DNA of 64,000 bases from Christensenella sp. GTDB lineage: Bacteria > Bacillota > Clostridia > Christensenellales > UBA3700. Shown one piece after another: positions 3,182 through 57,664 of the stretch; position 1 is the first letter of the stretch; each line of letters starts with the position of its first letter. Both the position numbers and the translations under genes were made by a program. Below the pieces are notes generated by a model. The model was not told the DNA's origin. It ran no database searches and saw only the letters and a list, made by a program, of their open reading frames with translations. The stretch covers positions 1 to 64,000 of the forward strand of contig JALFUR010000010.1 of NCBI GenBank assembly GCA_022784465.1, given 5' to 3'.

Positions 3182-3202
3182 ATATTGGAAAAAATCCAAT
3201 AT
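3182..3202 (+). promoter_or_regulatory. Hairpin over the gerA start
   Basis: ATATTGGA (3182-3189) and TCCAATAT (3195-3202) form an 8-bp perfect stem with loop AAAAA. The TTG start at 3185 is inside the stem and the GTG at 3203 directly follows it, so the structure would affect initiation whichever start is used. Confidence 0.5.
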
Positions 3203-4636
3203 GTGGAAGTTTCATTAGAAAAAGATTTAAAAAAACTAGATAGGGTATTTAAAGACAGTTTAGATGTATTTAAATTAGAATTTAGTATTGCGCAAAAATC
3301 TGCCGCAATATTTTTTATTGATGGTTTTATTGATAAAAGAATATTTGAAGATCACATAATTAAACCATTAAAAAATGTCTTAAGTTTAGAAAAACCTTAT
3401 TATGAGCAAATAGCAAAAACAACAATCTATACAAAGCAAATTATAAAACTAGAATCTTTAAAAAAGGCTATAGAAAACATAACGGCTGGGGAGATAGTAC
3501 TTTTTATTGATAAAGCAGAAGGCTATTTTGTTTTTTCGGAAAGATATCTTCCGATGCGTGCAATTCAAGAACCGCCAGTTAATAATGTGTTGCGCGGACC
3601 AAGAGAAGGGTTTAGCGAAGAAATAAAGACTAACTTGTCTTTAATAAGAAAAAGGCTTTATTCAAAAGATTTAAAAATAAAGATGTTTACAAAAGGAAAA
3701 CAAAGCAACACAAAAATTGCAGTTATATATATAAACAATATTGCAAAAAAAGAAATAGTAAATAAAATATGTAGAAAACTAGATAACATAAACATTGATG
3801 GAATAATAGAATCCTCATATGTTGCAAGGTATTTAGAGGAGAATAAAAACTCATTATTTACTCAGGTAGGCAATAGCGAAAAGCCTGATGTCATTGTGGG
3901 CAAAATGCTTGAGGGAAGGGTTGCGATTATAGTAGATGGTTCACCAAGCGTATTGACATTGCCATTTATATTTTTTGAACACTTGCAAACAGCGGAAGAT
4001 TATTATAGAAAAAGTATTAGGTCAACTATGCTTAGAACTATTAGGGTATTAGCTATGCTAATAGCCATATTGCTTCCTGGGTGTTTTGTAGCTATGCTAG
4101 AGTTTCAATATAACCTAATTCCACTTCAATTTTTAAAGGCAATAATTAATTCGTCAATACAAACGCCACTAACGCCAACATTGGAAATGCTTGTTGTTTT
4201 AATCATTTTTGAGATTTTACTTGAAACATCCATAAGAATGCCAAGATATATAGGGATGGCAGTTAGTGTAGTGGGCGCAATTGTTTTAGGAGATACGGCT
4301 GTGTCGGCAGGACTTTTAGCGTCTCCTACAATTTTTGTAATAGCGATATCTACAGTTTGCGTGTATTGTGTTCCGGACGAAGCAGACACAGTAAGTGTGT
4401 TGAGATTAATATTTGTTTGTATTGGCGGAGCGTTAGGATTGTATGGAATAGTAATAGCTTTTATAGCAATGCTTTCATATTTAGTTTCTATGGAGAATTA
4501 CGGTAGTGCGTATTTTGCTCCTTATGCTCCCTCAATACCTCATGATTGGCAAGATGGTCTTACTAAAAATAGCATTTTAAAAATGAAACAAAGGCCATAT
4601 TGTATTTCAACGACAAATAGAACAAGACAAAAATGA
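3185..4636 (+). CDS. GerA-family spore germination protein (A subunit)
   Basis: This is the A subunit of a germinant receptor in the spore inner membrane. It has a soluble N-terminal half and about five membrane helices from residue 280 onward. The family's C-terminal pattern is present (PDEADTVSVLRLIF near residue 398, then FAPYAPSIPHDWQD). The length of 483 fits the family. The start is uncertain: a TTG at 3185 gives full length, and a GTG at 3203 would be seven codons in. Neither has a strong ribosome site, and both touch the hairpin at 3182-3202. The stop overlaps the ATG of the next gene (ATGA), so the A and B subunits are coupled. Confidence 0.9.
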   Translation: MEKIQYVEVSLEKDLKKLDRVFKDSLDVFKLEFSIAQKSAAIFFIDGFIDKRIFEDHIIKPLKNVLSLEKPYYEQIAKTTIYTKQIIKLESLKKAIENITAGEIVLFIDKAEGYFVFSERYLPMRAIQEPPVNNVLRGPREGFSEEIKTNLSLIRKRLYSKDLKIKMFTKGKQSNTKIAVIYINNIAKKEIVNKICRKLDNINIDGIIESSYVARYLEENKNSLFTQVGNSEKPDVIVGKMLEGRVAIIVDGSPSVLTLPFIFFEHLQTAEDYYRKSIRSTMLRTIRVLAMLIAILLPGCFVAMLEFQYNLIPLQFLKAIINSSIQTPLTPTLEMLVVLIIFEILLETSIRMPRYIGMAVSVVGAIVLGDTAVSAGLLASPTIFVIAISTVCVYCVPDEADTVSVLRLIFVCIGGALGLYGIVIAFIAMLSYLVSMENYGSAYFAPYAPSIPHDWQDGLTKNSILKMKQRPYCISTTNRTRQK

Positions 4637-5718
4637 AAAACAAACTTTATATAAGACAATTCTATATTTTGGCATTTATTAGTGTCGCTACTTTCAAAAT
4701 AGGAGTTTTGCCCTCTTTGCTATATAGACAAGCTCAAAGTAGTAGTCTGCTTTCTATGCTTGTTATGATGATATTAGAAATGTTTATTTTTCTAATTTTA
4801 ATTGAGATTTCCTCTCATGGTTCAATACTTGAAGTAGACATTCCAATTAGCATAAAGACTCCTTTGCTTTTATTAGCTTTGTTGAGTTTGTTTATTAAAC
4901 TAAATATATATTTATCTGAAGGCAGTATATTTGTAAAAAATTATGTATTTGATGAAATTGGCCTGTTGTTTGTTGTTGTGCCTATGGCCATTTGTCTATT
5001 ATATGTTTCCTCAAAAGGTTTTACGTCGATTGGCAAAACAGCAGAGATAATAATTTGGTTTATTTTGGTGGCAATTTTTTTCGATATAATTTTTGCAAAG
5101 ATTGAATCAATGGATATTAAATTGGATAAAATGAGCATTTCTGCCTCTATTGTCGCAATAGATGAATATATTTTTTGGTTTGGAGATTTTACTCCGTTTT
5201 TGCTAATTACTTTAACAAAGCCATATGGAAAGAATAAATATAAAGTGTTGTTTCTTATAGGGATTGTTTTGTTGCCAACTCTTGCTATGTTGTTCTTTAT
5301 AATAATGTATAAAAGTGCAGGTGTAGATATAGAATATGCGTTTGCCAAACTCGCGGTTTATAATAGATTTTCTAATATTATTGGTAGATTTGATTTGCTT
5401 ACAATAATTTCTTTTTTGTGCGCAATGTTTATAAAGCTTAGTTTAATATTTGTATCAATAATAGAAATTTTAAATTACTTTTTTAAACGAAAAAACCTTT
5501 TTGGAATAATATTGGCAATTGTAATTTCATGCTTAACAATTCTTGTTTTTAATAATCTAACTACAACGATAAGTATAGCTACATCGTTTATAAAATATAT
5601 AGTTGTTTCAATCGAGTTTTTATTACCAATAGTTGTATTTATATTGCAAAGGTATTATAAAGTTTCCTCAAAAACTTATTCTTCTAATTTATCAAGGATG
5701 GAATATGATAAAAAATAA
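4633..5718 (+). CDS. GerB-family spore germination permease (B subunit)
   Basis: A 361-residue protein with about ten membrane helices, related to the amino acid/polyamine permease fold used by GerAB-type B subunits that sense germinants. It overlaps the A-subunit gene by 4 nt (ATGA) and is followed by a short C-subunit-like gene that begins before its stop. Length and order match gerA-gerB-gerC operons. The germinant is unknown. Confidence 0.85.
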   Translation: MKNKLYIRQFYILAFISVATFKIGVLPSLLYRQAQSSSLLSMLVMMILEMFIFLILIEISSHGSILEVDIPISIKTPLLLLALLSLFIKLNIYLSEGSIFVKNYVFDEIGLLFVVVPMAICLLYVSSKGFTSIGKTAEIIIWFILVAIFFDIIFAKIESMDIKLDKMSISASIVAIDEYIFWFGDFTPFLLITLTKPYGKNKYKVLFLIGIVLLPTLAMLFFIIMYKSAGVDIEYAFAKLAVYNRFSNIIGRFDLLTIISFLCAMFIKLSLIFVSIIEILNYFFKRKNLFGIILAIVISCLTILVFNNLTTTISIATSFIKYIVVSIEFLLPIVVFILQRYYKVSSKTYSSNLSRMEYDKK

Positions 5719-6280
5719 GAAATATATTATTTTCATATTAGTTATTGTATGTATCGTAGCTTTTTCGTTTTTAAATAAGGCTACAGTTTTTGATTCTATT
5801 ATAGCGGTTGGGCTTTCTGTGCAAATTGAACAAGAAAAGATTTACTACACAATAGATTATTTATCTAAAGAAGAAAAAGGAATACTAAGCGTTGAAGCAA
5901 AAGACCTTGATGATTTGAAAACTAGGGTAAAGAATAAAACAGGGAAAAGCATTTCTTTTGCACATTGTGTAGTGTTTATTATTCAAAAAAATCAAGACAT
6001 GTTTACACTTTTAAAGGATATATGTTTAGAAAAAACAATTGACTATAACGCATTAATATTTGTTTGTTTAAGTCCAAAAGAGATATTGAGTGAAGAAATA
6101 TTAGAAAAAGAAAGTGTATCTTTATTTATTGAAAAATCTAGAAAAGAAGACAAAGACAAAATAACGCTAAAGGAATTTTTAATAGCTAAACAAAATAAAA
6201 CCTCAATAGCGATTGAAGAGATAGCCATTGAGGAAAAGCTTTTAGAATCTAAGGGAGAGTTTGTTTTAAAGTGTTACTAA
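5705..6280 (+). CDS. Short GerC-like spore germination protein
   Basis: A 191-residue protein with one N-terminal membrane helix (about 5-22) and a soluble domain beginning DSIIAVGLSVQIEQ, which resembles the first domain of GerC proteins. Typical GerC proteins are about 370-residue lipoproteins. This one has about half that length and no lipobox Cys, so it seems anchored by a transmembrane helix. The start at 5705 has GGATGG upstream; the longer in-frame ATG at 5633 lies inside gerB. It overlaps the gerB end by 14 nt. Its 3' end overlaps nagA tail to tail by 15 nt. Identity as a GerC relative is inferred mainly from position. Confidence 0.6.
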   Translation: MIKNKKYIIFILVIVCIVAFSFLNKATVFDSIIAVGLSVQIEQEKIYYTIDYLSKEEKGILSVEAKDLDDLKTRVKNKTGKSISFAHCVVFIIQKNQDMFTLLKDICLEKTIDYNALIFVCLSPKEILSEEILEKESVSLFIEKSRKEDKDKITLKEFLIAKQNKTSIAIEEIAIEEKLLESKGEFVLKCY

Positions 6281-49065: not shown

Positions 49066-50520
49066 ATGGAAGAAGTAATAGTTAATACGAATAATCAAAA
49101 CAAGTTTGAGCAATCAAAGTTTATGCAAGTGTTTAATAAATTTGTATATTCCGATTGTTTTTTTATTGCATTGGTACTGATTATTTCAATTTGTTGGTGG
49201 CAAAAATGGTTGTTTGCAGGTTTGTCTATTCTTGTAGTTTTGGCATCAATTTTATTTGTAATTAAAAGAGATGTTTTACCAGCTTGTTCTATTCTTTTAT
49301 TAACCACTTCAGTAGTTTCTGTCAGAAAAATTCCTAGTAACATAATGGATTTATGGCCACTTGTCGTTTTGCTTATTATTTCTATTTTGGCACACATTAT
49401 CATATATCCAATGAAATCTTTAAAACTTGGAAGAATGACTATGCCGTTGTTGGCGGTGCTTGTAGCATGTTTACTTGGTGGAATTGGTTCTCAACTTGAG
49501 CATGTTATAAAGGCAGATATAATAAATGCACTTTGGCTTGGTGGAATTCCTTTAGTTATTTATTTTTTAGTATTAAATTATGAATCTATTCCAGAAAACA
49601 TTTCTTTTGCTCAATATGTAGCAAAACTGATTTTTTATTTTGGATGTATAGTTGTTCTTGAAATAGCTATATATTATATTTCAAATTGGGATTTTGTAAT
49701 GGAAAACCCTCTTTCGGTTGTTCATTTAGGCTGGGGAGTTTCAAATACTGTTGCTACAGTTTTGTTATTATCATTTCCAATGGGATTTTATCTATATTAC
49801 ACCTCAAAGGGACCAAAATCATATTTGTATATATTAATGTCAATTACTCATTTTATTGGAATTGCTTCAACTACATCAAGAGGAGCATTAATAGTTGGCA
49901 GTGTAGAGTTTGTTATTTTAGTAATAGCTACAATTTTTGTTTGTAAAGACAAAAAAAGAAAAGAATATTTAATTATGTCAGCAATAATACTTGCAGCAGC
50001 GCTATTTATTATTGTTTTAGAAAGAAATGCAATTATTAAGATTTTTCACATAATATTCGTAGATGGAATGGCAGATAGTGGAAGATTTAGAATATATACT
50101 GAAGCAATTGCGTGTTTTTTACAATCACCAATGTTTGGGGCAGGACTCGGATATGTTGGTGATTGGAAAGCTATAATTGACCAAAAAGGTTTGTATCAAA
50201 TTCACAATACGATTTTGCAAATCCTTGCATGTACAGGAATCATAGGAGCAATTGCGTATTTGTTCTACTATGCTGAGAGAATAAAAATGCTGTTTGATAA
50301 ATGGGATGCTTTTAATTTGTTTGTATTTTTGGCAAGTTTTGGATTTGAAGGATATTCAATGTTAAATACTGGAACAATACAAACTTTTCCATTTTTGGCA
50401 ATAATTATGGTGCTTACTATTGCTGTAGAAAAAAACACAAAATTGACCGAATATAATTACATACAAAAATTATTTTTCAAGAAAAATAAGGAGGGCTGTT
50501 TGAATGGAAACAATGGCTAA
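49066..50520 (+). CDS. O-antigen ligase/polymerase family membrane protein (Wzy-like)
   Basis: A 484-residue protein with about eleven to twelve membrane helices and a large loop near residues 320-390 that holds FGAGLGYVGDW, like the Wzy_C/WaaL pattern. It would join repeat units of a surface polysaccharide outside the membrane. Its end overlaps the Wzz-like gene by 17 nt. No convincing Shine-Dalgarno precedes the ATG. Confidence 0.8.
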   Translation: MEEVIVNTNNQNKFEQSKFMQVFNKFVYSDCFFIALVLIISICWWQKWLFAGLSILVVLASILFVIKRDVLPACSILLLTTSVVSVRKIPSNIMDLWPLVVLLIISILAHIIIYPMKSLKLGRMTMPLLAVLVACLLGGIGSQLEHVIKADIINALWLGGIPLVIYFLVLNYESIPENISFAQYVAKLIFYFGCIVVLEIAIYYISNWDFVMENPLSVVHLGWGVSNTVATVLLLSFPMGFYLYYTSKGPKSYLYILMSITHFIGIASTTSRGALIVGSVEFVILVIATIFVCKDKKRKEYLIMSAIILAAALFIIVLERNAIIKIFHIIFVDGMADSGRFRIYTEAIACFLQSPMFGAGLGYVGDWKAIIDQKGLYQIHNTILQILACTGIIGAIAYLFYYAERIKMLFDKWDAFNLFVFLASFGFEGYSMLNTGTIQTFPFLAIIMVLTIAVEKNTKLTEYNYIQKLFFKKNKEGCLNGNNG

Positions 50521-51850
50521 CGAAAAAGAACTAACCTTAAAAGATATTTTTAATATCATAAAAAAAGGATGGGTAAGAATTATTGTGTATATTCTTGTAG
50601 CTGCGCTTATTGCTAGTGCGGTATTGGTAACAATTTATACTAGTAATAAACAAGTAGAATATACAACAAATGTTAGATTTAACAACAGCAATCTTGCTTC
50701 AGGAGTTTCAGAATGGGGAACAGATTTTGATTATTCATCTATTGTTAAATCTGTAGAGGTTGTAAATGCTGCACTGGCAGAATGTGGATATGAAGGTGAA
50801 ATGTCAGATGAATTGTCCAAGTGGGTTACTAAAAATATTAAAGTTGTTGCAAATGAAGAAAGAAATGATTTAGGCGAAATAATAGTTAATAATGGTAACT
50901 TAAATATTGTTTTAAAAAAGTCAAATGAGTTAAGATTGACAGATTCTGACTATAAGGCAATTGTTGATGAAATTGCAAGACAATCAATTATTTATATAAG
51001 AAATAAATATTCATATAAAATAGATTTTGCAAATGTATCAAGCTTAGACTATACTTCAACAAATTATGTTAAAGTATATGAAATTTTATATAAAGAATAT
51101 GTTCAATTAAATAACATATTAGATAGCATTCTTTCTATAGATTCTTCATTTAGATCAACTCAAACAAAACAATCATTCCAAGACATTAAAAATAGAATCA
51201 ATTTTGTTTCTAGCGATATAAATTCTTTGGTAAGTTATTTTACGCAAAATGCAGTAAAAAATACGGAAAATCAAAGAGAAGATGAGGTCTCATACGTTGA
51301 TAGAAAAGTGGCTGAATATACAGTTCAAATTGATAACTTAGAATCTTCAATAACGAAACTTGGAACAATAATAGATAGTAGTAAGCCTGTTATTGTGGCT
51401 GGAGAAAACGTTGTTCAGTTCGGATTGAGCAGTGAAGATTATTATGATTTGATTAAACAATATAAAGCAATGCAAGAAGAACTTATTCAACTAAAGACAG
51501 AAAAACAAACATGGGAAACATTGCAAGTTTCTTATTCTGGAGTGATTATTACAGAAGCTAGTAAACAAGCTTTAGTTAAGGCTATGATTAGCGACATACA
51601 AATAGAGTTATCGTCAATTTATGATGATATGTCTGTTGGAGTAGAAGAATACAACAAAGAAGCATTGCTAATAAATGATATAAAGATAGAAATACCAGCA
51701 CAAAAGATAAGTCAAAGCGTATTAAGTGCAAGCATAATAATAATATTAGAATTTGTAATTATTGTTCTTGCCGCTATTGTGGCAATGGTGGTTACAAACT
51801 CAAAAATGAAAGCGAAGGGGAGCGACAATGAAGGAGTTAATAATAAATAA
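50504..51850 (+). CDS. Wzz/YveK-like chain-length or export protein
   Basis: A 448-residue protein with membrane helices near both ends (about 25-45 and 405-425) and a long extracytoplasmic coiled-coil-rich part, the layout of polysaccharide co-polymerases. The start LTLKDIFNIIKKGWVRI resembles Wzz domains. No tyrosine-kinase domain is fused. GGAGGG precedes the ATG inside the end of the Wzy-like gene, and the 3' end overlaps the next gene by 23 nt. Confidence 0.75.
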   Translation: METMANEKELTLKDIFNIIKKGWVRIIVYILVAALIASAVLVTIYTSNKQVEYTTNVRFNNSNLASGVSEWGTDFDYSSIVKSVEVVNAALAECGYEGEMSDELSKWVTKNIKVVANEERNDLGEIIVNNGNLNIVLKKSNELRLTDSDYKAIVDEIARQSIIYIRNKYSYKIDFANVSSLDYTSTNYVKVYEILYKEYVQLNNILDSILSIDSSFRSTQTKQSFQDIKNRINFVSSDINSLVSYFTQNAVKNTENQREDEVSYVDRKVAEYTVQIDNLESSITKLGTIIDSSKPVIVAGENVVQFGLSSEDYYDLIKQYKAMQEELIQLKTEKQTWETLQVSYSGVIITEASKQALVKAMISDIQIELSSIYDDMSVGVEEYNKEALLINDIKIEIPAQKISQSVLSASIIIILEFVIIVLAAIVAMVVTNSKMKAKGSDNEGVNNK

Positions 51851-53900
51851 TTATCTAGGAATAGATTTATTAAAAGAGGATATCTCAGCAGGTTATGATT
51901 TAACCGATATATATGAAGTTGAAAAACTTATGAAAGTAATACGTATGTCAATTATACGTAAGCATATTAATAATGGTGTAATCTTTTTAGATTTTGACGG
52001 AGTATATATCGACAAAGATGTTGTTATAGGGAAAGGAACAAAGGTATATGCAAACAATTATTTGCAAGGAAGCACTGTTATTGGAAAAGATTGCGTTATT
52101 GAAGCAGGAAATACTATAAACAACTCAAGAATAGGAGATTCAGTAAAAATCAGTGCAAGCAATTTGTCCGACTGCGAAATAGGGTCAAAAACTACAGTTG
52201 GACCAAATGCACATGTTCATACACATAGTGTAATTGGTAGTGGATGCAGAATAGGAAACTATGTGGAAATTAAAAACAGCACATTAGGAATGGGCACAAA
52301 AGCTGCGCATCTTGCATATGTAGGAGATGCAGATATTGGCTCTAATTGCAATTTAGGCTGTGGTTCAATTTTTATTAATTACGATGGAAAAAATAAACAT
52401 AGAAGTGTTGTTGGCAATAGTGTATTTATAGGAAGCAATAGCAATGTAGTTGCGCCTGTATCTATTGAAGATAACGCATATATTGCAGCTGGAACAACTG
52501 TTACTGTGGATTTACCAAAAAATTGCATGTGTATTGGAAGATCAAGAGAAACTGTTAAAGAAAACAGAAGTAAATACAATAAGCCTTTATATGTTAAAAA
52601 ATATTTTGGAACAGATGGTATTAGAGGTGTATACGGCGAGTTTTTAACAGAAGAAATAGCATTTTTATGTGGAAACAGATTGGGATATTCTTCCGATGGA
52701 GGAGTTGTTGTTGTAGGAAGAGACAACAGACCAAGTGGAGAAAAATTAGCAAAGGCTTTAATTGAAGGTGTTATAAAAGCAGGTGCGAGTGTAATTGACC
52801 TTGGAGTTGTTACTACTCCAAATGTTGCTTTTACAACAGTGGATAAAAAAGCAAATTATGGTGTAGCTATTACTGCTTCTCATAATCCTTGGAAATATAA
52901 CGGCATAAAGATCTTTGATTATAATGGTAGAAAATTAGAAGATATAGAAGAGATTGAGATAGAAAAACACATTGATGAAAAGAAAGTGTTTGAAGGTAAA
53001 GGATTAGGCCTAATAAAAGACGGCAAAGAAGAAGTAAAAGAGTATTTAAATGATTTATGTAGATTAATAGGAAATTTAAACGGGCTTAAAGTTGTTCTTG
53101 ATTGTTCAAATGGTGCAATATCAAAAACAGCAGAAACGATTTTTAAAAATGTTGGAGCAAATGTCATTGCATATAACACAAGTGAAGATGGTCATTTAAT
53201 CAATGAAGGATGTGGAGCCTTACATCCTGAATTTATTGTAGAAAAAGTATTGGAAAACAAAGCAGACATCGGACTTTGTTTTGATGGAGATGCGGATAGG
53301 GTTATTGCCGTTGACGAGAAAGGCAAAAAAGTTGATGGCGATAGCATTATTTATATAATAGGCCGTGCATTAAAAGAAAAAGGCAAATTAAATAACGATA
53401 TGGTCGTTGGAACTTTGCATACCAATATGGGAGTTGAAAAATCATTAGAGAAAATTGGTATTAAACTAGCAAGAACAGACATAGGAGATCATTTTGTTGT
53501 TGAAAAAATGTTAAGAGATAATCTTATGGTTGGTGGAGAACAATCTGGTCATATCATTTTAAGAGAGTTCTCAAATACTGGAGATGGCGTCTTAGCGGGA
53601 TTATATCTAGCTAAACTTATAAAGGAAACAGGGAAAAGTTTATCTTCACTTGATGATAGCGTTCATTATCCGCAAGAAAATATTAATATTATCACAGAAA
53701 AAAAGAAAGAAATAATGGCCGATAATGATGTTAAGGAATTTGTCAAATCAATAGAAGAAGAACTGAGCAATAAGGGAAGAGTACTATTAAGGGCAAGTGG
53801 AACAGAGCCAAAAATTAGAATAATGGCAGAATGCGAAAATAGTGAACTTGCTAAAGAAATTGCAAACAAAATGAAAATGTTTATTGAGGCTAAATTGTAA
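51828..53900 (+). CDS. GlmU acetyltransferase domain fused to phosphoglucosamine mutase (GlmM)
   Basis: The 690 residues join two enzymes that catalyse consecutive steps. Residues 1-250 are the GlmU linker helix and left-handed beta-helix: VYIDKDVVIG, VEIKN (Lys149), the catalytic His161 in KAAHLAYVGDADIG, INYDGKNK, IAAGTTVT. Residues 257-690 are GlmM: FGTDGIRG, active Ser351 in TASHNP, metal Asp486/488/490 in DGDADR, the amino-sugar loop GEQSGH and RASGTEPKIR. Together they would convert GlcN-6-P to GlcN-1-P and then GlcNAc-1-P. The uridylyltransferase half of GlmU is absent. At the E. coli GlmU Arg333 position there is His131. It overlaps both neighbours. Confidence 0.85.
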   Translation: MKELIINNYLGIDLLKEDISAGYDLTDIYEVEKLMKVIRMSIIRKHINNGVIFLDFDGVYIDKDVVIGKGTKVYANNYLQGSTVIGKDCVIEAGNTINNSRIGDSVKISASNLSDCEIGSKTTVGPNAHVHTHSVIGSGCRIGNYVEIKNSTLGMGTKAAHLAYVGDADIGSNCNLGCGSIFINYDGKNKHRSVVGNSVFIGSNSNVVAPVSIEDNAYIAAGTTVTVDLPKNCMCIGRSRETVKENRSKYNKPLYVKKYFGTDGIRGVYGEFLTEEIAFLCGNRLGYSSDGGVVVVGRDNRPSGEKLAKALIEGVIKAGASVIDLGVVTTPNVAFTTVDKKANYGVAITASHNPWKYNGIKIFDYNGRKLEDIEEIEIEKHIDEKKVFEGKGLGLIKDGKEEVKEYLNDLCRLIGNLNGLKVVLDCSNGAISKTAETIFKNVGANVIAYNTSEDGHLINEGCGALHPEFIVEKVLENKADIGLCFDGDADRVIAVDEKGKKVDGDSIIYIIGRALKEKGKLNNDMVVGTLHTNMGVEKSLEKIGIKLARTDIGDHFVVEKMLRDNLMVGGEQSGHIILREFSNTGDGVLAGLYLAKLIKETGKSLSSLDDSVHYPQENINIITEKKKEIMADNDVKEFVKSIEEELSNKGRVLLRASGTEPKIRIMAECENSELAKEIANKMKMFIEAKL

Positions 53901-54721
53901 TGATAATTATAACAAAAGAAGATGGGTCGTATAAGAGTGTTTCTTTAAATAATAAATACGTAAATCAAGCAATAGATTTATATAAGCAAACTTTTAACGA
54001 TTCAGAATCTTTTATAAAAATCATTATGGAAAAAGTAAAAGCTGTCTCTATTGATATAGTTGATAAGCAAGTTGTATCATGTGCATTTTATAGAGAAAAA
54101 CATATATTAGAGAACAAAAAGAAAATGAAAATCCCATTTATTTTTGGAGTTGCAACAAATCCTAATTATAGGCATCAACAAAGAGCACATAAAGTAATAA
54201 ACGGGTTATTGAATTATATAAAAGAAAAAGGCTATGAGATGGCATTTCTAGCGCCAGCAAATAAAGGTTTATATGCATTTTACTCTCAATTTGGATTTGA
54301 AAAATATAGTTTTTTCGAATACAAAAATGGAAGAATAGAAGACAAATATGTTGTTAGACAAGGTAGCGTAGAAGATGCAGAAATCATTATGAAGCTTTTC
54401 AATAAAAACGCTAGAAAATTGATTAATTGCCAAATAAGGAATAAGGCGGAAACCGAAATAAAATTAAAAGAGGTTGAGGCGGATGGAGGCAAAATAATGC
54501 TAGCATTGAATAACAAAAAAGTAATTGGGTATTATTTTGAAGATGGCGATATAATAGAATCAATAGGAATAGACTGGATATACGAAGAGGAAGGAAAGAC
54601 AATAGTAATTCCAACAAACAAATATATGGAAACCTCAAAATGTCCAGGCATAGTAGTTAAAAACTTAAATACTGCAAAAGACAAAACAGGCAAAGACGCA
54701 TATTTTTATGATATGTGGTAA
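53900..54721 (+). CDS. GNAT-family acetyltransferase
   Basis: A 273-residue protein with an N-terminal GNAT fold: FGVATNPNYRHQQRAHKVI is the acetyl-CoA loop region (about 76-94), and AFLAPANKGLYAFYSQFGF the following strand-helix (split at ANK). A second, smaller domain follows (about 150-273), like Eis-type enzymes. The gene overlaps the GlmU-GlmM gene by one base and stands 11 nt before a PglE-like aminotransferase, so it could acetylate the amino sugar made there; a protein or antibiotic substrate is also possible. Confidence 0.75.
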   Translation: MIIITKEDGSYKSVSLNNKYVNQAIDLYKQTFNDSESFIKIIMEKVKAVSIDIVDKQVVSCAFYREKHILENKKKMKIPFIFGVATNPNYRHQQRAHKVINGLLNYIKEKGYEMAFLAPANKGLYAFYSQFGFEKYSFFEYKNGRIEDKYVVRQGSVEDAEIIMKLFNKNARKLINCQIRNKAETEIKLKEVEADGGKIMLALNNKKVIGYYFEDGDIIESIGIDWIYEEEGKTIVIPTNKYMETSKCPGIVVKNLNTAKDKTGKDAYFYDMW

Positions 54722-54732
54722 AGAGGAGAAAT

Positions 54733-55938
54733 ATGAATATACCATTTTCACCACCAGACATTTCCGAAGAAGAGATTAACGCAGTCGCCGATACATTGCG
54801 TTCTGGTTGGATTACTACTGGTCCAAAAACTAAAGAATTTGAAAAACAAATTGCTAGTTATTGTGGAACGAATAAAGCAGTATGCTTAAATTCTGCAACG
54901 GCAGGATTAGAACTTGTTTTAAAAATTTTAGGTGTGGGACAGGGAGATGAAGTAATAACTTCTGCATATACTTATACGGCTAGCGCTAGCGTAATTGAAC
55001 ATGTTGGAGCAAAAATTGTATTATGTGATATACAAAAAGATTGCTTAGAAATGGATTACGAAAAACTTGAATCGTTAATTACAGAGAATACCAAAGTAAT
55101 TATTCCGGTGGATATTGCAGGAAAGATTTGCGACTATGATAAAATATTTAACATAGTTGAAAATAAAAAAAAGTTATTTAAGGCTAAAAATGAAATTCAA
55201 TCCATTTTTAATAGAGTAATAATTTTGGCAGATGCAGCTCATAGTTTTGGAGCAACACGAAAAGGTTTAAAAAGTGGAAATATTGCTGATTTTACATCGT
55301 TCAGTTTTCATGCAGTAAAAAATTTAACGACAGCAGAGGGCGGTGCTGTAACATGGAAAGCAAATAAAGAGATTGACGACGAAAAAATATATAAAGAATT
55401 TATGCTTTGGTCGCTTCATGGACAAAGCAAAGATGCTCTAGCAAAAACCCAACTTGGAGCTTGGGAATACGATATAAAAATATGTGGTCAAAAATGTAAT
55501 ATGACAGATATTATGGCATCTATTGGACTTGTTCAATTATCTAGATATGGACAATTGTTAAATAGAAGAAGAGAGATCATTGAAAAATATGATAGCGAGT
55601 TAAAAGATTATGTTGATAGCGTAAAACATTATTCTAGCGATTCTTCTTCAAGTGGTCATTTGTATATAACTAATGTTAAAAATATTAATTTAGAGCAAAG
55701 AAATGCAATAATAATTAAAATGGCAGAAAAGGGAGTAGCTACGAATGTCCATTATAAGCCACTTCCATTGCATTCGGCCTATAAAAACTTAGATTTTGAT
55801 ATAAATAATTATCCAAATGCATATTCAAGATTTAAGAGCGAAATAACTCTTCCTTTGCACACTCTTCTTACAGATGAGCAAGTAGATTATATTATCAAAT
55901 TATATAAAGAGACAATTAATGAGGTGAAAAATGTATAA
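54733..55938 (+). CDS. DegT/DnrJ-family sugar aminotransferase (PglE-like)
   Basis: A 401-residue PLP enzyme that would add an amino group to a UDP-keto-sugar. It has SGWITTGPKTKEFE, NSATAGLE, the PLP Asp in ADAAHSFGA (about 167) and the Schiff-base Lys196 in FHAVKNLTTAEGG. With the 4,6-dehydratase at 11433 and the phosphoglycosyl transferase next to it, it fits the route to a diamino sugar like N,N'-diacetylbacillosamine; this is an inference. I start it at 54733 behind GAGGAG. It overlaps the next gene by 8 nt. Confidence 0.87.
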   Translation: MNIPFSPPDISEEEINAVADTLRSGWITTGPKTKEFEKQIASYCGTNKAVCLNSATAGLELVLKILGVGQGDEVITSAYTYTASASVIEHVGAKIVLCDIQKDCLEMDYEKLESLITENTKVIIPVDIAGKICDYDKIFNIVENKKKLFKAKNEIQSIFNRVIILADAAHSFGATRKGLKSGNIADFTSFSFHAVKNLTTAEGGAVTWKANKEIDDEKIYKEFMLWSLHGQSKDALAKTQLGAWEYDIKICGQKCNMTDIMASIGLVQLSRYGQLLNRRREIIEKYDSELKDYVDSVKHYSSDSSSSGHLYITNVKNINLEQRNAIIIKMAEKGVATNVHYKPLPLHSAYKNLDFDINNYPNAYSRFKSEITLPLHTLLTDEQVDYIIKLYKETINEVKNV

Positions 55939-57664
55939 ATTCTTCAAAAGATTGTTTGATTTAATTTTATCGATAGTTGCTTTGCCTTTTTTATTAATAA
56001 TTACGATTTTTGTTGGTATAGCTATCAAGTGCGAAGATGGCGGCCCTGTGTTTTATTGCGGAAAGAGGATAGGAAGGAATGGTAAAATTTTTAGAATGGT
56101 AAAATTTCGATCTATGAGAGTCAATGCTCCTGATATCAGGCTTAGGGATGGGTCTACTTACAACGGCGATGATGATCCGAGAGTGACCAAGGTAGGTAAG
56201 TTTTTGCGAGTGACTTCCATTGACGAGTTGCCACAAATTTTCAATGTTTTCGTTGGTCAAATGAGTTTAATCGGACCAAGACCCGACCCTGAAGATTGGC
56301 TTGACAAATATTCTGAGGAAGAAAGGGTATTTTTGACGGTGCGTCCGGGCATAACGGGATATAGTCAAGCTTATTTTAGGAACCAAGTCGATGGCAAAGA
56401 AAAAATCAAAAATGATGTATATTACGCAAAGCATTGCTCCTTCGAATTAGATATAAAAATTTTTTTCAAGACGATTGCCGTAGTAGTCAAGAGAGAAAAC
56501 ACATATAAGGACACTCAAGGCGAAGACGAGGTAATGCACGAGATAGAAAATATGAACCTTCTCGATAATGACACTCAAGGCGAAATAGGATTTGTTCAAG
56601 AATATGGTAGCGAATTTGATGATTTGTCCAACAATCAATTCTTGTTGAAAACCCCCACCACTCCATATTTTTTACAAGGTAAAAACGCACAGTTTTTTAG
56701 AAGTGGGAGAGATTGCCTAAAAGCAATAGCAAAACATTTTGACAAAGCGCAAAAGGTCGTACTAATGCCTGCGCTAAGTTGTCCTTCAATGTTATTACCT
56801 TTTACAAGTAATGGATATCATCCTATTTTTTACAAACTTAACGAAGATTATACAGCTAACGTTGCCGATGTAGAGAGCAAAATTCACGATGGAATAATAT
56901 TTTTATATTTTTCTTATTTTGGCGTTCAACCTTTTTCTACTCAATGGCTTCAAATGAACAAAACAAAGTACCCAAACACTATTTTTGTAGAAGATTGTAC
57001 ACAAGACTTATTGTCGCCACGTGAGGGATTTGTTGCCGACGTAACAGTTGCAAGTATTCGAAAGTGGTTGTCAATTCCTGACGGGGGAGTATTGTGGAGC
57101 AAGAACACAATTAAAAACGAGGTTTTGGTAGACAATAGTTTTGCTCGTCTTAGACAAGAGGCGATGAGTCTAAAAAGTCAATATCTAAGGACGAAAGACA
57201 AGGCGTCCAAAGATAAATTCAGAGCATTGCTTAATGAGGCATCAAACTTGTTGGACGTTTCTGAGCAACCATATAATATTTCGTTAAAGTCTTTAGATAT
57301 TTTGAACTTGGTAGATTTTGACCAAATTTATGCGGTACGCAAAGCTAATGTAGCCAAGTTGCAAAGAAGACTTGATGGTTTGCGAGAACAAAGAAAAATC
57401 AAATATGTTGCTAACGACACGAGCAAAAGTACGTTATATTTTCCTATTTTAATAGAAAATCGCGACCAAGTACAGAGCAATTTGGCTAGACAAGGCGTAT
57501 ATTGTCCAGTCATATGGCCTATTGCGCCTCAAGCAGAGGGAATGTGTGAGGTAGCGCAAAATACGGCAAATAAAATACTTGCAATTCCGTGCGACCAACG
57601 CTATAACGAGCAAGATATGGATTACGTTGCAAGTATCGTTATTTCGACAATACAAGGCAAATAA
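55931..57664 (+). CDS. Phosphoglycosyl transferase fused to a DegT-like aminotransferase domain
   Basis: Residues 1-200 are a PglC/WbaP-type phosphoglycosyl transferase: one re-entrant membrane helix (about 8-32), KFRSM, the catalytic Asp108-Glu109 in SIDELPQ, GPRPD and RPGITG. It starts lipid-linked sugar synthesis. Residues 230-577 form a DegT-like PLP fold (EDCTQD near 364, SIRKWLSIPDGG with Lys388). The linker holds DTQGE twice (204-208, 224-228), encoded by identical 15-mers 60 bp apart. The frame is open throughout. This union is not one I know. Base composition is richer in G+C than in its neighbours. Confidence 0.82.
   Translation: MYKFFKRLFDLILSIVALPFLLIITIFVGIAIKCEDGGPVFYCGKRIGRNGKIFRMVKFRSMRVNAPDIRLRDGSTYNGDDDPRVTKVGKFLRVTSIDELPQIFNVFVGQMSLIGPRPDPEDWLDKYSEEERVFLTVRPGITGYSQAYFRNQVDGKEKIKNDVYYAKHCSFELDIKIFFKTIAVVVKRENTYKDTQGEDEVMHEIENMNLLDNDTQGEIGFVQEYGSEFDDLSNNQFLLKTPTTPYFLQGKNAQFFRSGRDCLKAIAKHFDKAQKVVLMPALSCPSMLLPFTSNGYHPIFYKLNEDYTANVADVESKIHDGIIFLYFSYFGVQPFSTQWLQMNKTKYPNTIFVEDCTQDLLSPREGFVADVTVASIRKWLSIPDGGVLWSKNTIKNEVLVDNSFARLRQEAMSLKSQYLRTKDKASKDKFRALLNEASNLLDVSEQPYNISLKSLDILNLVDFDQIYAVRKANVAKLQRRLDGLREQRKIKYVANDTSKSTLYFPILIENRDQVQSNLARQGVYCPVIWPIAPQAEGMCEVAQNTANKILAIPCDQRYNEQDMDYVASIVISTIQGK

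Follow-up and report, generated by a model that had tools for sequence, protein, structure and literature searches.

A fused acetyltransferase and mutase gene

The window, by which we mean the whole 64,000-nucleotide stretch of the Christensenella sp. contig analyzed here, contains a single uninterrupted forward-strand frame of 690 codons that begins with ATG, is preceded by a ribosome-site-like stretch (GGGGAG), and joins a GlmU-type glucosamine-1-phosphate (GlcN-1-P) acetyltransferase to the phosphoglucosamine mutase GlmM (Table 1). The mutase part (aa 260-685) scored 464.7 bits against TIGR01455, above the curated NCBIfam equivalog cut-off of 447.55. GlmU models matched aa 27-250 with the C-terminal half of their profiles only (TIGR01173 positions 228-449; NF010934 positions 225-444), and the score of 245.7 bits against TIGR01173, which describes bifunctional GlmU, was below its equivalog cut-off of 366.85. 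Pfam recognized Hexapep and all four PGM_PMM domains, and profile matching found the N-terminal uridylyltransferase domain, with its motifs LAAGxGTRM, QxGTGHA, and GDxPL, to be absent from the fused protein. No in-frame start codon occurs from aa 236 to 275, so translation of the GlmM part could not begin separately at the junction.

Table 1 Features of the fused gene and its immediate neighbors (all coordinates are window positions).
Feature	Coordinates	Strand	Basis
O-antigen ligase/polymerase-like gene (Wzy_C)	49066..50520	+	PF04932
Upstream gene overlapping the fused gene, 448 aa	50504..51850	+	No Pfam/NCBIfam match
Fused gene, GlmU-type GlcN-1-P acetyltransferase and GlmM	51828..53900	+	Profiles and conservation
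GlmU linker helix remnant, aa 28-48	51909..51971	+	AlphaFold2 helix; GlmU-structure alignment from aa 36
GlmU C-terminal left-handed beta-helix (LbH) acetyltransferase, aa 30-250	51915..52577	+	TIGR01173; 4aaw, 1hm0
His131, in place of the E. coli Arg333 equivalent	52218..52220	+	Alignment of LbH rows
His161, equivalent of E. coli GlmU catalytic His363	52308..52310	+	Invariant in fused proteins and all LbH rows
Hinge joining both enzymes, aa 250-254	52575..52589	+	Sole stretch with pLDDT < 50
GlmM domain, aa 257-690	52596..53897	+	TIGR01455; structures 6gyz, 7ojr
Ser351 in TASHNP, GlmM phosphoserine site	52878..52880	+	Invariant column
Metal-binding loop DGDAD, aa 486-490	53283..53297	+	D486, G487, D488, D490 invariant
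Sugar-binding loop EQSGH, aa 571-575	53538..53552	+	E571, S573, G574, H575 invariant
GNAT acetyltransferase directly downstream, one-base overlap with the fused gene	53900..54721	+	PF13527

The nearest solved structures were S. aureus and B. subtilis GlmM for the mutase and S. pneumoniae GlmU for the acetyltransferase, and no PDB chain spanning both enzymes was among the sequence matches listed. An AlphaFold2 monomer model with 53 related sequences as input had a mean pLDDT of 93.4 and showed the linker helix at aa 28-48, the LbH strands, and the GlmM fold; at a pTM of 0.68, the mutual placement of the two enzymes is uncertain. The original prediction held that the GlmU linker helix and beta-helix, with its catalytic His, run directly into a complete GlmM, fusing two consecutive enzymes of one pathway, and that the uridylyltransferase is missing. 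The profile matches within one open frame, the model, and His161 agree with it on the first points, and no GlmU-type uridylyltransferase was found in the fused protein or in the genome.

Judged by its position and terminal membrane segments, the 448-aa upstream product may be chain-length-regulator-like. The same upstream gene pair precedes the fused gene in Christensenella sp. UBA3700 (L013) and SIG377 (L014), and L013 also has the same downstream GNAT neighbor. In genus g1 the fused gene lies on the margin of a polysaccharide cluster; other families carry it elsewhere. Two further observations concern the window at large. A second fusion, at 55931-57664 (+), combines a bacterial sugar transferase (PF02397, aa 6-187) with a DegT-like aminotransferase region (PF01041, aa 459-570), and three genes at 3185-6280 (+) look by eye like an operon for a spore germinant receptor, which suggests a spore former.

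Active-site residues

The whole GlmM enzyme is present, and its Ser, metal, sugar, and phosphate loops are all in place: Ser351, Asp486/488/490 (DGDxD), Glu571-His575 (GExSGH), and the phosphate loop Arg655-Glu660 (RxSGTE). Mutase activity would be expected from these residues. Unlike GlmM, the fused protein has an additional N-terminal acetyltransferase.

With GlmU, the bifunctional GlcN-1-P acetyltransferase/N-acetylglucosamine-1-phosphate (GlcNAc-1-P) uridylyltransferase, the fusion shares the linker helix, the left-handed beta-helix, and nearly all active-site residues. It retains the equivalents of E. coli Glu349, Lys351, His363, Tyr366, Asn377, and Asn386, as well as those of Tyr387, Lys392, Ser405, Ala423, and Arg440. 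Numbering follows the E. coli GlmU sequence, in which the known residues landed at their expected numbers. Unlike GlmU, the fusion has no uridylyltransferase domain, has GlmM at its C-terminus, and has His131 at the equivalent of Arg333, a residue that presumably takes part in substrate binding. Because of this replacement, acetyltransferase activity is less certain than in ordinary GlmU; the retained residues nevertheless suggest that the fused protein performs the step. His occupied the Arg333 position only in the window clade and its unfused sister G126, and all remaining LbH rows examined had Arg, so the change probably preceded the fusion.

The beta-helix might instead have lost or changed its catalysis through this replacement, and now mainly hold GlmM as a trimer or acetylate another sugar phosphate. 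We consider this improbable. His131 does replace Arg across the window clade, and GlmU LbH domains do trimerize (PMC11947611), but the other catalytic and CoA-site residues checked (the His363, Lys351, Tyr366, Asn377, and Lys392 equivalents) are all kept, and the genome shows no second GlcN-1-P acetyltransferase, yet has MurA.

Genome-wide search for GlmM and GlmU

The genome containing the window is 98% complete, such that a missed gene is possible, and it has two PGM_PMM loci. One is the fused gene. The other encodes a 590-aa enzyme that is no GlmM equivalog, since its scores against the glmM (77.4 bits) and Arch_GlmM (175.6 bits) models are far below the cut-offs, as are its scores against all GlmM and phosphoglucomutase models that it matched. 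No full-length GlmU, other GlmM, or other GlmU acetyltransferase was found in this 98%-complete genome. Searching the genome with the GlmU profile at E<=1 returned the fused beta-helix, GlgC, an IspD-like protein, GalU, and unrelated hexapeptide proteins only, with no GlmU uridylyltransferase among them, and four congeneric genomes gave no sign of the GlmU N-domain either. MurA is present (495 bits). MurA uses UDP-GlcNAc, so this compound must be made or obtained.

The position of the gene had raised the idea of a paralogue dedicated to its polysaccharide cluster, with housekeeping GlmM and GlmU encoded elsewhere, and the genus g1 neighbors (Wzy_C, sugar transferase, aminotransferase, and nucleotide-sugar dehydrogenase genes) would fit it. 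We regard this as very unlikely and rejected it: the whole-genome profile searches found neither separate glmM and glmU genes nor a stand-alone GlmU N-terminal protein, leaving the fused gene as the sole GlmM and sole GlmU-type acetyltransferase found, and in other families the fused gene is not part of a polysaccharide cluster (in G036, for instance, it adjoins glmS). Given that no other GlmM, GlmU, or GlmU acetyltransferase was found and that MurA is present, the fused gene most likely encodes the housekeeping enzyme from GlcN-6-P through GlcN-1-P to GlcNAc-1-P.

Recurrence of the fusion

The same fusion occurred in L013 (79% identity), L014 (77%), and the Clostridia assemblies L015-L017 and L019, and a separate search reached it in family and order relatives. 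In all, the fused architecture was conserved in L013-L017, L096, L097, L099-L101, L166, L167, and L019, at 42-79% identity. Several assemblies carry two labels, judged by identical match tables (L013 = G004, L014 = G002, L015 = G266, L017 = G018, L019 = G277, L018 = G196). The fusion is genuine: the window comes from a draft of 15 contigs, and relatives do have separate adjacent genes, but a frameshift or an assembly or sequencing artefact is next to inconceivable and is ruled out by the identical architecture in independent assemblies, across that range of identities and in three separate places of the tree.

We built an unrooted tree of 44 rows from the acetyltransferase and mutase, with 200 bootstrap trees. 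The fused or separate state needed three changes on it, and a single change sufficed in 0/200 bootstrap trees. The first fused group is the window clade (genus g1, G036, L015, L016, G009, and L017; support 100/99). The second is a clade within genus g5, where unfused relatives keep two adjacent genes. The third is L019 on a long branch, whose taxonomic group f28 otherwise has unfused pairs. If separate genes are ancestral, the three changes amount to three gains, and the fusion most likely arose three times independently in this order. The fused protein of G266 (family code f24, locus L160) groups with those of family f3 and shares 61% identity with that of the window, a possible horizontal transfer.

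Origin of the domain order

The relatives form a series: GlmU that is intact, GlmU whose uridylyltransferase is eroded, an acetyltransferase-only gene beside glmM, and the fusion. Intact GlmU of 455-476 aa, with the signature motifs kept, was found in seven relatives, in several of them beside pth. Eroded GlmU, in which the beta-helix follows an N-terminal part of 80-190 aa with none of the signature motifs, was found in G039, G040, G044, G046, G051, G053, G054, and G057, and the same type in L018, L022, L023, G126, G070, G146, G382, and G091. The eroded gene is still next to pth or prs in G040, G051, G053, G039, and G054, and others adjoin glmM. Most of family f1, as well as members of f8, f9, f14, and f28, have an acetyltransferase-only gene of ~200-240 aa immediately before glmM, as a rule no more than ~16 bases from it.

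As acetyltransferase-only genes stand directly upstream of glmM in relatives, the acetyltransferase would come to be N-terminal upon fusion. On these arrangements the domain order is explained by gene order, and a functional reason is unneeded. That intact GlmU came first is suggested by the remnants and by the wide occurrence of intact GlmU. Acetyltransferase-only GlmU genes beside prs and pth were also seen in the cultured Sinanaerobacter (L026, 8820-9536) and in a Eubacteriales assembly (L024, 9995-10696); by these two, uridylyltransferase loss seems to reach past the close relatives of the window.

Candidates for UDP-GlcNAc synthesis

The candidates in the genome are GalU (G000:C13:20763-21548) and GalT (G000:C13:162283-162810). 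GalU is one of only three PF00483 (NTP_transferase) proteins there, the others being GlgC and GlgD. NTP_transf_3 is absent from this genome, and a UDPGP-type pyrophosphorylase was ruled out, with no UDPGP-family enzyme found. GalU with a widened specificity may make UDP-GlcNAc from GlcNAc-1-P, a tentative assignment to which we give not quite an even chance. It is favored because L018 (= G196) has an eroded acetyltransferase gene, glmM, glmS, and galU in a row within 5 kb, with gaps of ~10-20 bases, and because its PF00483 proteins are GlgC, GlgD, and the GalU of the row only, the same three as in the genome of the window. The galU neighborhoods of relatives gave no consistent link to glm genes except in L018/G196; glmM and galU are neighbors in G322 and G109, convergent by coordinates.

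GalU scored 385-396 bits on TIGR01099 in GlmU-intact genomes and 270-347 in most GlmU-less genomes tested, with 390 in G054, where GlmU is lost. The GalU position aligned via GExxLTD to GlmU Tyr197 was Gln in 5/5 intact genomes and Tyr, Cys, or Phe in 30/35 GlmU-less ones, the rows being closely related, and L018 keeps Gln. These differences point to GalU, but they are confounded by kinship and give a lead only.

An enzyme other than GalU may equally be responsible, a reading that we place slightly on the doubtful side: GalT-type transfer from UDP-glucose, a small nucleotidyltransferase in relatives, UDPGP in a few, or an unrecognized enzyme. The GalT of the genome could also transfer UMP, most of family f1 encodes a nucleotidyltransferase of ~240 aa that resembles archaeal GlmU, HddC, and MurU, and UDPGP is present in G044, G047, G052, G146, G382, and G411. 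In G084 and G277, near-complete reduced genomes of about 0.8-0.9 Mb with MurA and the acetyltransferase/GlmM, no PF00483 or PF01704 protein was found. Against this reading stand the absence of the small nucleotidyltransferase from genus g1, that of UDPGP noted above, and the single gene row of galU and the other three genes in L018. As a general replacement the ~240-aa nucleotidyltransferase was rejected, because genus g1 lacks it and the matches listed included none in G041, G042, G053, or G054. This stand-alone protein is encoded at L114 3986-4678, L116 3971-4711, and equivalent loci of family f1, near serC/serA-like genes in several genomes.

For the order as a whole, it is possible, though we would sooner doubt it, that much of it dropped the GlmU uridylyltransferase and re-purposed GalU, or used an unrecognized enzyme in reduced genomes without PF00483/PF01704, with the acetyltransferase-GlmM fusion as one outcome. 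Elsewhere in the window, an APH-family kinase (PF01636; 9316-11411, +), directly before a galE-like gene, resembles N-acetylhexosamine 1-kinase by eye and could provide a salvage route to GlcNAc-1-P or GalNAc-1-P.

Proposed function and significance

We consider the following joint explanation highly probable: the sole GlmM and the acetyltransferase work in one chain, the uridylyltransferase was lost first, fusion occurred repeatedly, and another enzyme, likeliest GalU, acts last. The GlmM domain would convert GlcN-6-P to GlcN-1-P, and the beta-helix domain would acetylate this product, yielding the GlcNAc-1-P needed for peptidoglycan and surface polysaccharides. The GlmU uridylyltransferase domain would have been lost in an ancestor, after which the remaining acetyltransferase gene came to precede glmM directly and the two fused. 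A separate enzyme would then convert GlcNAc-1-P to UDP-GlcNAc. As the fusion is repeated and the genes are closely adjacent in relatives, co-production is presumably beneficial, possibly through shared expression, a fixed 1:1 ratio, or local removal of GlcN-1-P; channeling of GlcN-1-P by the fused enzyme is possible. The GlmU acetyltransferase works as a trimer whose active sites are shared (PMC11947611), and by analogy the LbH trimer would hold three GlmM units together.

The fusion arranges known enzymes in a new way; it is no new kind of system. Acetyltransferase-containing arrangements also include archaeal-type GlmU (TIGR03992) and an alternative bacterial GlmU (TIGR03991), which, going by the model names, pair the acetyltransferase with a nucleotidyltransferase, whereas the partner here is a mutase. 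The reported MurB/MurC fusion of Verrucomicrobium spinosum likewise joins two enzymes of cell-wall precursor synthesis in nature, but these are other enzymes at other pathway steps (PMC4803751). In the openly accessible papers searched, judged by titles, abstracts, and selected passages, no description of a natural GlmU-GlmM fusion was found.

Fused relatives are natural test cases for the effect of joining two steps on flux. The GlmS-GlmM-GlmU route to UDP-GlcNAc is generally regarded as near-universal among bacteria, and drugs are aimed at GlmU. A Clostridia order that is often without the GlmU uridylyltransferase, and in which the acetyltransferase is repeatedly tied to GlmM, indicates that this route is open to rewiring and draws attention to the enzyme that makes UDP-GlcNAc there.
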